64,000 nucleotides of DNA from Schlesneria paludicola DSM 18645 (GTDB lineage: Bacteria; Planctomycetota; Planctomycetia; Planctomycetales; Planctomycetaceae), in NCBI GenBank assembly GCA_945869955.1, contig CAMBQP010000002.1, positions 1 to 64,000 on the forward strand, in the 5' to 3' direction. Below the pieces are notes generated by a model. It was not told the DNA's origin and ran no database searches. It was given only the letters and a program-made list of their open reading frames with translations. Shown piece by piece: positions 10,131-15,199 of the stretch (its first letter is position 1; each line of letters opens with the position of its first letter). The position numbers were made by a program, and so were the translations under genes.

Positions 10131-11528
10131 ATGTCCACATTTCGGAAAGCATCAACCCTGCAGGAAGTGGCTGGGGAGACCGAAGTCCAACCTCTGAAAC
10201 AAGGGGACGTGCGTTATGTGGATCTTTCGGCTGGCCGCGATACGCGCGACCTAAGTCGATTGCGGCTTAAGCTGGAGGACTGTGTCAAAAGAGGAGACTT
10301 CGCCAAGATCGCGTTCACTGGTCATCGTGGTTGTGGGAAATCCACCGAACTTTACCGGATGGAGCACGCGCTGGCCCAAGAATTTTATTCCGTACATTTG
10401 TTTGTTGACGACAGTCTCTTGCACGCCATGGAGTATCCGGATCTGTTTCTCTGGATTGTCGAATCGGTGGCCAAACGTTTTTATGAAGCGTCCATTCCCG
10501 TCGATGATTCCGTCATCGACCGCGTCAGAGCTTGGTTCGAGCAAAAGGTTCAAATCACGGATGATGTTTCAAAAGCGGAAATGAAATTGGAAGCGGGCGT
10601 CGAGTCCAAAGCGGGTCTCTTCGGCCTTTTGTCATTGACTGCAAAATTAAAATCCTCGTTCATGGGAAGCACCGAGCGGCGGACAGAGATTCGTCGGTCA
10701 CTCAAAAATTATGCCAACGACTTGATCGATCGTATGAACGAGTTGTTTGACGCCGCACGGGCTGGACTGAAATCCGTAGGTAAGCCGGTCGAATTGCTGC
10801 TCGTGATCGATAACCTGGATCGATTATTGCCACAGGTTGGTCGAGAATTGTTCCTGGAAAACGGCGAACTCTTGAAACGGCCAAAAGTTCACCTGATTTA
10901 CACCGTCCCGCTGCCGATGATTCTCGCACCGAGCAGTATTAACAACACTTTTGACACCTTTACGCTCCCGATGGTCAAGTTGCAGTATCCCGACGGCAGG
11001 CGTTTCGACAAGGGGCGTGATGTGCTGAAAAAGTTGTTGTCCGCCCGATTGGAACTCGACTCGATTTTCAAAAGCCCTGCGGTCATCACCGAACTGATTC
11101 GCATGTCAGGAGGTTCGGTGCGTGATCTGATGCGACTGCTGAGCTATGCCCAGACCGATGCCCGCGTCGATTACAAAGCGATGATTGATCTGCCGAGTGT
11201 CAGAAGCGCGGTGAAAAAGACGCGAATTGATTATGAAAGGATGCTGTTTCCGGTTGAGGTCTACTTCCCCATGCTGTGCAGGGTGCATCAAACCAAGCAG
11301 GATCCCATGCGACCCGGTGAAAAAATTGACCGCACCAGCGTACAAAGCGCACGAGAATTCTTCAGTGATCTGCTCTTCAACGGGTCGGTTCTCGAATACA
11401 ATGGCGAGAAATGCTGGTATGACGTACATCCGATCGTACAATTGATCGATGCGTTTCAGGAAACTCTGAAGAAGCTCTCAAATGACGCAGCGGAAACCGC
11501 AGAAGACCCCCAGTCCGCCGCAGGATGA
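10131..11528 (+). CDS. AAA/STAND-like P-loop ATPase, partner of downstream NACHT protein
   Basis: Walker A GHRGCGKST, Walker B LLLVIDNLDRLLP; RBS-like aggaag upstream of ATG; 3' end overlaps the next ORF by 47 nt. Confidence 0.75.
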   Translation: MSTFRKASTLQEVAGETEVQPLKQGDVRYVDLSAGRDTRDLSRLRLKLEDCVKRGDFAKIAFTGHRGCGKSTELYRMEHALAQEFYSVHLFVDDSLLHAMEYPDLFLWIVESVAKRFYEASIPVDDSVIDRVRAWFEQKVQITDDVSKAEMKLEAGVESKAGLFGLLSLTAKLKSSFMGSTERRTEIRRSLKNYANDLIDRMNELFDAARAGLKSVGKPVELLLVIDNLDRLLPQVGRELFLENGELLKRPKVHLIYTVPLPMILAPSSINNTFDTFTLPMVKLQYPDGRRFDKGRDVLKKLLSARLELDSIFKSPAVITELIRMSGGSVRDLMRLLSYAQTDARVDYKAMIDLPSVRSAVKKTRIDYERMLFPVEVYFPMLCRVHQTKQDPMRPGEKIDRTSVQSAREFFSDLLFNGSVLEYNGEKCWYDVHPIVQLIDAFQETLKKLSNDAAETAEDPQSAAG

Positions 11529-14292
11529 CCGCGACCGTAGTCGACGCGGGTTGACTTTCTTCCTGGCGGATTCGGTTGGCTTTCGGCTTGGCTTGGCCAC
11601 CTATGATGTCCCCTCCACGCGAACGCAAGAATTATCCCTGGCCGTCACCGCGGCGGCGAAGGACAAGATTCACCTGACGGTCCTGAATCTGGCTGATCAT
11701 TCGCTGGATGTGAATCTCTTGCAACAACTGGAAGCTCATCTTCAGACGATCCCTACCGAGCCAGGCTGTCAACGAGCGATTGCCGTGACCGGTATCGAGG
11801 CTGTGATGGAGGCGGGATCGCGACTTGATCCGCCTGACCGGTTTGCGATTTTGCATCGAACCAACCTGCAGCGGGACGCCTTCGTCAGTCGCGCCCCTGT
11901 TCCTGTGGTCCTGTGGATCAATCGACCAAGCCTGTCAGCACTGGCGCATGAAGCCCCCGACTTTTGGCATTGGCGAACGGGAAGTTTCGAATTTTTCTCG
12001 AATGGCGAAGATCTTGAATCGGTTCTGGCGACGACCGTCGCCCCGGCGCTGGCCCGATTTCTGATGTGTCACTACCTGCAACTTCCGGCGATCCCCTTTG
12101 GCGGATTGTCCGAGCTTGCTGCGCACACGGTCCAGAGCCCCTTTCTTTTGCGCGAAGCGGTCAGGGAATTCGAAAGCCTCGGCGAGAAAATTGCCGCACG
12201 GCTGACTTCGGTCTTTACAGCAGAGGCTTTGGATGAATCCGGTCGCAATGAGGTGGCCAGAATACTGGGACATACGCTGAACCATCCGGTTCAGTTCCCA
12301 AACCAAACGGGACACGACCTGAACCCGACCCAGCTTGCGGATCAGTTTCGTCGGGTGGCTCTTCCCGAACAGGCCCCTCTTTCGAGCGAACAGCAACGAA
12401 TGTTCGATCGTGCGCTCGATCAGGTTGTTCGCTACCTGGTCAACCTGGCTTCGGCACTACCAAAATTCCAATCGGCCGTGGCAAAAGAGAGTCTCGAACG
12501 ACTGAGTCGGATTGGTAATGACCTCGACCAAACACTGAATGCGGTGGAATGGATTGAACGGATCGTCGTTGCCGATTCTCGCCGCTTGGCGACTCGATAC
12601 GAAGCGGATTACCGCCAGGGGGTAATCCGGAACCTTGATTATCTTGAACTTTTCGGGGCGGATATTCCCCCTGAAGCGAGTCGGCACGCCTTATCGGTGG
12701 CTTACGTCTCACTGAATCTGCAAGACGAGGATCTGCAAGACGAGGATCTGCGAAACGAAAAAACCGCAAACTTGGTGGGTGTTTCACTCCCTGTCGAGAG
12801 GGTCTTGGAACAGCTTTCCCCCGTTTCGGGTCGGTTGCTGATCCGGGGCGAGGCAGGAAGTGGGAAAAGTACCTTGTTTCGCTGGATCGCGATTCAGGCC
12901 GCTTATGGCGGGGTGATTTCGCAATCGGGAGGAGGGCTTTACGTCCTGAAACAACCAGGGATTCCCGCGACCGAAGAGACTCGATACCCGCATGCTCTCC
13001 ATCGGCAAATTTTGGAAAAACACTGGTCTCTGCGGATTCCGTTTCTGATTCGGCTGCGAGAATTCACCGAAGGGACGTTTCCCGAGCCTCAACAATTTCC
13101 TGAACAGGTTGTTCGCCAGATCGGGCCCCCCCTCGACGAGGGGATCGTGGATATTCTTCAAGAGGGGCGAGCGATCATTCTGCTTGACGGAATTGACGAA
13201 ATTCCCCGTGCGCATCGCGCGGCGATGAAAACCTGGTTGACCTCGTTCACGGTCTTGTATCCCCATAATGACTATCTGGTCAGCACGCGGCCACAGGCGG
13301 TAGGCCTTGGTTGGCTGGCGGATCTGGGATTTCGCGAAGCAACGGTCAATCCGATGAGTAACGAAGATCAGTCCCAGCTGATTGACAAGTGGCATCAGGC
13401 GGTCGGTGAAGAGCTGAAGCGACGGGGTGACCATGATCCCCGTCTGGCAGGTATGGCCGAGCGATTGAAAGCCAAGTTGCACGAACACCCTTCGATCAAT
13501 CGATTAGCGCGATACCCACTGCTGGCATCCATGATCTGTGCATTTCATCGACGCAATCACGAGCATCTTCCCCCCAGCGAGATCGAGTTAACCGAGCGAC
13601 TCTGCTTCATGCTGCTTGATGACCGCGACCGCTTGAGTGGCCTGTGGGACGAGTCTTTCCCGACCCCCTATTCCAAACTCGAATATCGTCATAAAAAGCT
13701 GATCGTGCAGGACTTGGCTTATGATATGATGGTACATCGGCAGACTTCCTCGTTGACGCGTAACGAGGCCTTGAAAATGGTCGAAGAGCGGCTGGCCCGT
13801 TTGGGAAAATCTGCCGACCCGGAACTGATCATGACCGGCCTGATTGAACGAAGCGGGATGCTGCGTGAACCCTCGCCCGGACGAGTCGATTTTCTGCATA
13901 ACACCTTCAAGGAATATCTCACCTCGTTACGGCTGGTTGCCGAGCAAAACGAGAATTTGCTTGCTAGCCATTGGAGCGACGCGGAATGGCGTCCAGTCAT
14001 CCTGTTCGCTGCCGCAACCGAAAAACAAGGGTTTGCAACGAATTTAATCCGGCTGATTCTGACGTTTAAAAATGACGATCTGAGCTTGGCGACGGAGTAC
14101 GACTCTGTTCGTTTTTCTGAATTACCACAGCATTTGCAGAATGGTTCGGTGACACTGAACGAAGCCCGGCAACGCCAACTGTTGGCACTTCGTTGTCGAT
14201 CCGTCGCTCTGGATCTGGATCCCGAGTTACAAACCCAACTCGACAAATTACAGGAGCACCTGTTTCCCCCCCCGAGATTTTGCCGAGGCTGA
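11482..14292 (+). CDS. NACHT-domain NTPase (bNACHT/NLR-like), reading frame ends just after a C8 tract
   Basis: Walker A IRGEAGSGKSTLFRW, Walker B/NACHT signature AIILLDGIDEIP, sensor-like YLVSTRPQAV; terminates PPPRFCRG* immediately after cccccccc at 14266-14273. Confidence 0.85.
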   Translation: MTQRKPQKTPSPPQDDRDRSRRGLTFFLADSVGFRLGLATYDVPSTRTQELSLAVTAAAKDKIHLTVLNLADHSLDVNLLQQLEAHLQTIPTEPGCQRAIAVTGIEAVMEAGSRLDPPDRFAILHRTNLQRDAFVSRAPVPVVLWINRPSLSALAHEAPDFWHWRTGSFEFFSNGEDLESVLATTVAPALARFLMCHYLQLPAIPFGGLSELAAHTVQSPFLLREAVREFESLGEKIAARLTSVFTAEALDESGRNEVARILGHTLNHPVQFPNQTGHDLNPTQLADQFRRVALPEQAPLSSEQQRMFDRALDQVVRYLVNLASALPKFQSAVAKESLERLSRIGNDLDQTLNAVEWIERIVVADSRRLATRYEADYRQGVIRNLDYLELFGADIPPEASRHALSVAYVSLNLQDEDLQDEDLRNEKTANLVGVSLPVERVLEQLSPVSGRLLIRGEAGSGKSTLFRWIAIQAAYGGVISQSGGGLYVLKQPGIPATEETRYPHALHRQILEKHWSLRIPFLIRLREFTEGTFPEPQQFPEQVVRQIGPPLDEGIVDILQEGRAIILLDGIDEIPRAHRAAMKTWLTSFTVLYPHNDYLVSTRPQAVGLGWLADLGFREATVNPMSNEDQSQLIDKWHQAVGEELKRRGDHDPRLAGMAERLKAKLHEHPSINRLARYPLLASMICAFHRRNHEHLPPSEIELTERLCFMLLDDRDRLSGLWDESFPTPYSKLEYRHKKLIVQDLAYDMMVHRQTSSLTRNEALKMVEERLARLGKSADPELIMTGLIERSGMLREPSPGRVDFLHNTFKEYLTSLRLVAEQNENLLASHWSDAEWRPVILFAAATEKQGFATNLIRLILTFKNDDLSLATEYDSVRFSELPQHLQNGSVTLNEARQRQLLALRCRSVALDLDPELQTQLDKLQEHLFPPPRFCRG

Positions 14293-15199
14293 GGCACTAG
14301 CCACTGCGGGAAATCTGGCTGTCGAATGGCTGAAATATCGACCGAATGACGCATTCTACGAAAGAGCTGCGTCTGTTCACGCCCTAAGGTTGATCGATAC
14401 ACCACTCGCACGGCAAGCGATCAACGATTATTTGCCGGATCAAAACGAGCAAGTCTTTTACGAGCTTGCGAAAGCCGTTGATGCTCTCGCAATACCAGCG
14501 GTGGTCGATTCGTTAGTGACGCCATGGCGTGCAGAGAATAGTGGCTGGTTTGAAACCCGTCTGTTAGCTCATAGTCTCGTCACAACAATCAACCACTTAG
14601 TCGCCACAAAAAGCATCACGCTACTCGACTTGTCTTGGACCAGAATCAATAACTTATCGACACTGTCTCGTTTTCCTCAACTCAAACATTTGAATATATC
14701 TCATACCGAAATCGCAGACATTTCGCCACTACAATATCTGAGGAATCTCGAAATACTGGATTTATCAGTCACATTCGTGGATAACTTGAAGCCGATTAGC
14801 GAATTGCGAAATCTGAAGTCTTTATTCTTATCGTCAATTCGTGCAATTCAAGGCGTCTCGAACATCGAATCATTGCAATTCATCGGACTGATAGCGGGGG
14901 GGAATATAATCTCTGGAGAGCCCCCAATCTTTACTTTTGAAATTTCTGATTGGTTCGCACCTTTATTCAGCTTTGTGCCACTGCCGCACTTGAAAAAAGT
15001 TTGGCTGAGATGGGGTTGGGGTCCAACAGGCGACAATCTTGCCTTCGAGCTCAGGGATGAAATCAACGAGTTTCACCGACTTCGCGAACAACAGAATCTT
15101 CCTCCGGTAGAAATCGTCTTTGATTTTCAAATCGACCGTCGCTTTTTTGGATTGGAGTGTGGCGAGTCGAGTACTGGGGCTGTCACGTTGCCGGATTAG
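14274..15199 (+). CDS. Leucine-rich-repeat C-terminal part of the NACHT protein (in frame if one C is removed from the C8 tract)
   Basis: Frame open from the C tract through DFAEAEALATAGNLAVEWLKYRPNDAFYERAASVHALRLIDTPLAR into LRRs: ITLLDLSWTRINNLSTLSRFPQLKHLNISHTEIADISPLQYLRNLEILDLS. The separate ORF call starts at a TTG (14390) with no evident RBS. Confidence 0.75.

Follow-up and report, generated by a model that had tools for sequence, protein, structure and literature searches.

Genes and features of the locus

In the window, i.e. the whole stretch of 64,000 nucleotides that was analysed, two overlapping genes on the forward strand are followed by an LRR part in another reading frame. As originally described, they lie between a secreted hydrolase (AXE1/dienelactone-hydrolase-like) upstream and a DUF1501 gene downstream. 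The features of the locus are:

10131..11528, plus strand: gene 1, predicted AAA+ ATPase, 465 aa, intact in the list of open reading frames
11482..11528, plus strand: overlap of 47 nt between the two genes, which may be translationally coupled
11482..14292, plus strand: assembled gene 2, comprising N-dom, NNH1 and NACHT, 936 aa, ATG start at 11482, stop at 14292
11482..12081, plus strand: N-dom, predicted inactive AAA+ domain, residues 1-200 (relatives' profile and AlphaFold)
12025..12537, plus strand: NNH1, NACHT N-terminal helical domain 1, residues 182-352 (PF22733, E 2.7e-20)
12835..13401, plus strand: NACHT NTPase, residues 452-640 (PF05729, E 2.5e-15)
14266..14273, plus strand: eight consecutive C, where the frame changes between the NACHT and LRR parts (three-frame reading)
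14285..15199, plus strand: LRR part in a frame other than that of NACHT (LRR_4, E 3e-11)

The first gene had been described as a separate P-loop ATPase overlapping the second by 47 nt, and both statements hold. Gene 1 carries the Walker A motif GHRGCGKST and LLLVIDNLDRLLP, a Walker B motif (LLLVIDNLD), an SGG-x-VR motif and a winged-helix-like C-terminal end. Walker A is kept in all 50 relatives of the alignment. Gene 1 reached the cut-off of no family in Pfam or NCBIfam; the NCBIfam model ATPase_Sll1717 gave 28.6 bits, below its curated cut-off of 75. As a PDB sequence search with the window proteins and profiles yielded no significant match, the comparison was made at the level of folds. The AlphaFold model of gene 1 (pLDDT 87) resembled Cdc6 (E 3e-8), TnsC (E 3.6e-7) and ORC as top PDB folds, the matches to Orc1/Cdc6 and TnsC having approx. 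12% identity and TM-scores below approx. 0.5. Its motifs, all intact, and this model together mark gene 1 as an AAA+ ATPase with an Orc/Cdc6-like fold. The phage records contained no match to it.

Gene 2 is NLR-like, as had been proposed, on the basis of its NNH1 and NACHT domains, and both the Walker A motif (GEAGSGKST) and the Walker B motif (AIILLDGIDEIP) of the NACHT are intact. It had been read as a single NACHT-LRR gene from 11482 to 15199. The assembly does not bear this out: the NACHT reading frame ends at 14292, and the first start codon listed in the separate LRR frame is a TTG at 14390. The LRR part is nevertheless real coding sequence, because its LRR matches are clear. A homologue from the planctomycete genome G037 (locus L116) reads NACHT and LRR in a single unbroken frame, its residues 52-754 aligning to the NACHT part and 759-944 to the LRR part of the window. 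Its identity with the NNH1-NACHT part is about 37-40%. The assembled gene 2 thus falls short of a full NACHT-LRR protein; in the G037 homologue, the LRRs do belong to the same protein.

With its frame broken between NACHT and LRR, the copy in the window could have lost its activity, be subject to reversible switching or reflect a misassembly. We consider it possible, at somewhat less than even chances, that it is a decaying or switched-off relic with a receptor truncated before its LRR sensor, a reading compatible with the explanation that we prefer for the pair as a whole. The frame change at the C run, compared with the continuous homologue, is consistent with decay, as is a slight excess of broken reading frames at G/C runs of at least seven (4/62, compared with 123/6137 at random places). 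All other motifs are intact, however, both halves have kept coding sequence, and the frame change may also stem from faulty base calling or assembly, the genome being a draft of 394 contigs. The idea that the eight-C run is a special phase switch was weakened by the frequency of such runs in this genome (362 matches), so that finding one here does not indicate a switch.

A predicted inactive AAA+ domain as the constant partner of the ATPase

The N-terminal domain of gene 2 (N-dom) did not figure in the original prediction. These first approx. 200 residues match no Pfam family, nSTAND models included, and they align with the N-termini of genes downstream of gene 1 homologues in other bacteria. 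The domain was defined by a profile built from ten relatives. Its AlphaFold model, computed from a 50-row alignment, has a mean pLDDT of 88 and five strands in alpha/beta order. Every listed PDB match of probability 1.00 was an AAA+ protein, the best being archaeal ORC2 (E 1.1e-4), with TM-scores of approx. 0.4-0.5. None of the 50 N-dom members has a Walker A motif, and the acid pair of Walker B is absent. Asn128, Arg131 and Asp160 are invariant in the alignment; gene 1 has a conserved Arg as well, and the two are candidate arginine fingers. N-dom is therefore predicted to be a separate domain with an AAA+ fold devoid of Walker motifs.

A search of the genome collection with the gene 1 profile confirmed at least 524 relatives, 80 of which, mostly from filamentous cyanobacteria, were kept. 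Searching genome contigs with the window ATPase alone found no relative; profile A1 did recover relatives. Loci from the genome collection, plasmids, planctomycetes and acidobacteria provided 116 ATPase genes with enough downstream sequence, and an N-dom gene follows directly downstream on the same strand in 110 of them. As most loci are cyanobacterial and interrelated, this fraction overstates the number of independent events, and the sample is biased towards relatives of one query and towards cyanobacteria. The pairing loci come from cyanobacteria, Blastocatellia/Acidobacteria, planctomycetes, Poribacteria, Chthonomonas and a gammaproteobacterium. Between the stop codon of the ATPase gene and the beginning of the N-dom homology lie 104 nt in the median; the frame of gene 2 is already open before gene 1 stops in 52 of the 110 pairs. 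Pairwise distances of ATPase and N-dom correlate (r 0.886, reached in 0 of 2000 permutations), in part because the hosts share ancestry. In one of the six exceptions (L009, on plasmid 4 of Calothrix sp. NIES-4101), a second ATPase copy with a fused TIR domain (L009:8279-10372) stands between the plain ATPase and the N-dom gene. The latter contains nSTAND1 and two N-doms in tandem.

The constant partner of the ATPase is N-dom, not NACHT. The original prediction had named the lack of a conserved neighbourhood as a refuting outcome; the survey found the opposite, with the partner domain directly downstream of 110 of 116 related ATPase genes. The proposed two-gene unit exists as a conserved pair, but the conserved link joins ATPase and N-dom rather than ATPase and NACHT.

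The same survey bears on the simplest explanation, namely that gene 2 is an ordinary single-gene bacterial NLR standing by chance behind an unrelated ATPase gene. NNH1-NACHT proteins with neither N-dom nor ATPase do occur in G037 and on a Streptomyces plasmid. However, gene 2 has the N-dom, the domain found directly downstream of the ATPase family in 110 of 116 cases, and the NNH1-NACHT relatives that lack the ATPase lack N-dom as well. We therefore regard a chance arrangement as highly improbable. Given that NNH1-NACHT relatives without N-dom occur in G037 and on Streptomyces plasmids (a single gene in the plasmid case that was inspected), gene 2 of the window would seem to be a bacterial NLR of a known kind, preceded by an added N-dom.

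The distribution of the pair is patchy. Among 294 planctomycete genomes, the ATPase was found in five and N-dom in five; among the genomes listed for the family of the window, the ATPase occurs only in the window's own genome. Two planctomycete N-dom genes stand without an ATPase, so that the pair is not obligatory. The window's own genome contains a second N-dom in a 237-aa gene (L118:1325-2603, minus strand, contig C161), which overlaps a TPR gene in another frame, has a small gene upstream that is GAF-like by eye and adjoins no ATPase of the gene 1 family.

Variable modules behind the constant domain

The sequences behind N-dom differ widely. Cyanobacterial proteins carry TPR, nSTAND1 and WD40, and in several acidobacteria and planctomycetes N-dom is followed by TPR alone. 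NB-ARC occurs in a Chthonomonas genome and at the Blastocatellia locus L152, calcineurin-NACHT-FGE in planctomycete G130, and in the acidobacterial set NACHT in G353 (L219) and NACHT-HEAT in G433 (L216). The window has NNH1-NACHT-LRR with the LRRs out of frame. Most N-dom partners bear TPR or nSTAND1-WD40, not NACHT, and many N-dom-TPR partners have no recognised effector. At a further place in G353 (L218:4656-9842, minus strand), N-dom precedes a stretch that appears TIR-like by eye, with no TIR among the listed Pfam hits, and WD40 repeats come last.

NNH1-NACHT-LRR modules may also have other company. In G037 (contig C340, L116:1-5980, minus strand), the NNH1-NACHT-LRR gene without N-dom lies behind an Mrr-nuclease-NACHT gene and overlaps it, suggesting that such proteins may pair with other NTPases too.

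A complete diversity-generating retroelement was found in the planctomycete G019 (contig C81, L223:2877-5436 and L117:9816-15011). Its template repeat lies at L223:4143-4273 and its reverse transcriptase frame, with YMDD, at L223:4354-5436. The variable repeat lies at the end of an N-dom-TPR-SIR2-NACHT-FGE gene; of its 25 core mismatches, 18 are at positions where the template has an adenine. A retroelement-diversified C-terminus in an N-dom gene is as expected of a sensor. No ATPase of the gene 1 family was found in the G019 genome. A second, convergent target of this retroelement (L223:5556-9086, minus strand) is calcineurin-like, without N-dom, and has a P-loop that is NACHT-like by eye and a terminal FGE-type repeat; 14 of 28 core mismatches are at template adenines.

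A proposed receptor switch and its relation to known systems

We lean, with modest preference, towards a two-gene receptor switch, most likely directed against invaders, in which a pair of active and inactive AAA+ modules controls interchangeable NLR-like receptors. ORC mixes active and inactive AAA+ subunits. Being likewise an active/inactive pair, the ATPase and N-dom might form a mixed AAA+ assembly, as known for ORC and as proposed for nSTAND2 (PMC8195603). This assembly would hold the receptor inactive or license it. The C-terminal repeats, LRRs in the case of the window, would sense the invader, NACHT would oligomerise, and NNH1 and/or the ATPase ring would pass on the signal, the likely outcome being that growth is arrested or the cell dies. 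Because the pairing recurs in several phyla with swappable receptor parts, it probably serves as a shared switch for defence receptors. A bolder version, to which we give tentative credence, holds that the active ATPase and the dead AAA+ adaptor are the constant heteromeric core of an undescribed family-level immune switch, grafted onto unrelated receptors. If so, one control unit would serve many NLR types (NACHT-LRR, NB-ARC, nSTAND1-WD40 and retroelement-diversified SIR2-NACHT). We found no publication on the pairing of ATPase and N-dom with NACHT-LRR in the literature searched, mostly open-access journal articles.

The original prediction of a defence module is supported only by the domain company of the family (NACHT, NB-ARC, nSTAND1, SIR2, TIR and calcineurin), but not by any defence-island enrichment at the locus. 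PADLOC recognises neither gene 1 nor gene 2. Among ten nearby proteins it gave no convincing defence match, with no recognisable defence island at the locus; the weak matches of a ComEC-like neighbour were read as cross-hits via its metallo-beta-lactamase part. There is no tRNA in the window, no convincing repeats were found, promoter and terminator scans were at or below chance, and no empty site was demonstrable at the corresponding place in relatives, in which the upstream hydrolase is kept within the family (65% in G507) and its neighbours are not.

Another reading, which we consider rather unlikely, is a role in signalling or regulation outside defence, for instance in stress or in the development of multicellular bacteria, with an ATPase-STAND-repeat pair acting in a MalT-like manner. 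The pair is very common and multicopy in filamentous cyanobacteria (three genomes each gave 7 to 9 matches to the ATPase), N-dom is in many cases followed simply by TPR, and no defence island is recognisable around the window locus. Yet, the company of SIR2, TIR, calcineurin, NACHT and NB-ARC, the retroelement-diversified sensor and the patchy presence in planctomycetes fit conflict systems better. By guilt by association, the company of modules, the patchy distribution and the retroelement-diversified C-terminus would point to conflict with invaders.

In the literature searched, the closest precedent is nSTAND2, predicted by Kaur et al. in 2021 to act against invaders (PMC8195603, Fig. 6C). 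It consists of two genes, one for an active module and the other for an eroded one whose most frequent fusion partners are GT4 and HEPN; it is related to Dap3 and predicted to form a hetero-multimer with arginine fingers (PMC8195603). Compared by description, the present pair is alike in its adjacent genes with STAND/AAA+ cores, one of them eroded and fused to variable modules. That it is nSTAND2 itself in a new architecture is a serious candidate explanation, although we would not call it probable. The two-gene operon, the variable fusions of the eroded core and the relation to Dap3 in the published description (PMC8195603) fit, as do a weak DAP3 match in 3 of 10 ATPases and the invariant Arg of N-dom. 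On the other hand, the Pfam nSTAND models miss N-dom, with no nSTAND2 match listed for the window proteins or the ATPases, and the common partners GT4 and HEPN were absent from the sample of gene 2 proteins scanned, HEPN being hard to detect in general. Their place is taken here by TPR, nSTAND1-WD40, NB-ARC, NACHT-LRR and calcineurin-NACHT-FGE.

The logic of an active and an inactive NTPase with variable effectors, enriched in multicellular bacteria, is shared with the iSTAND/VMAP MoxR-vWA ternary systems (Kaur et al. 2020, PMC7159879). The present system differs in having two genes, not three, and in being flanked by the hydrolase and DUF1501 rather than by MoxR or vWA genes; PADLOC found no VMAP/iSTAND-type system among the ten neighbours. 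On a plasmid of Nostoc sp. C057 (L011:5216-8140), a MoxR ATPase gene precedes a gene in which a distant ATPase relative and a SAV_2336-type protein are joined; this fusion is possibly a bridge to the MoxR-vWA ternary systems. In contrast to the settings of Orc1/Cdc6 and TnsC, the window pair has no replication or transposition genes nearby.

Bacterial NACHT-LRR proteins (PMC12169576) and NACHT sensors diversified by retroelements (PMC10907252) are already known. Like bNACHT proteins, gene 2 has a central NACHT, an N-terminal module and, in the case of the window out of frame, C-terminal repeats; it differs by the predicted inactive AAA+ domain before NNH1 and by the coupled upstream AAA+ ATPase gene. 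Gene 2 is a bacterial relative of the human NLR immune receptors. The bacterial NACHT proteins described so far are mostly regarded as working on their own. Control of such proteins by a separate ATPase with its own docking domain, if it exists, would be the bacterial counterpart of the helpers and adaptors in NLR immunity of animals and plants.
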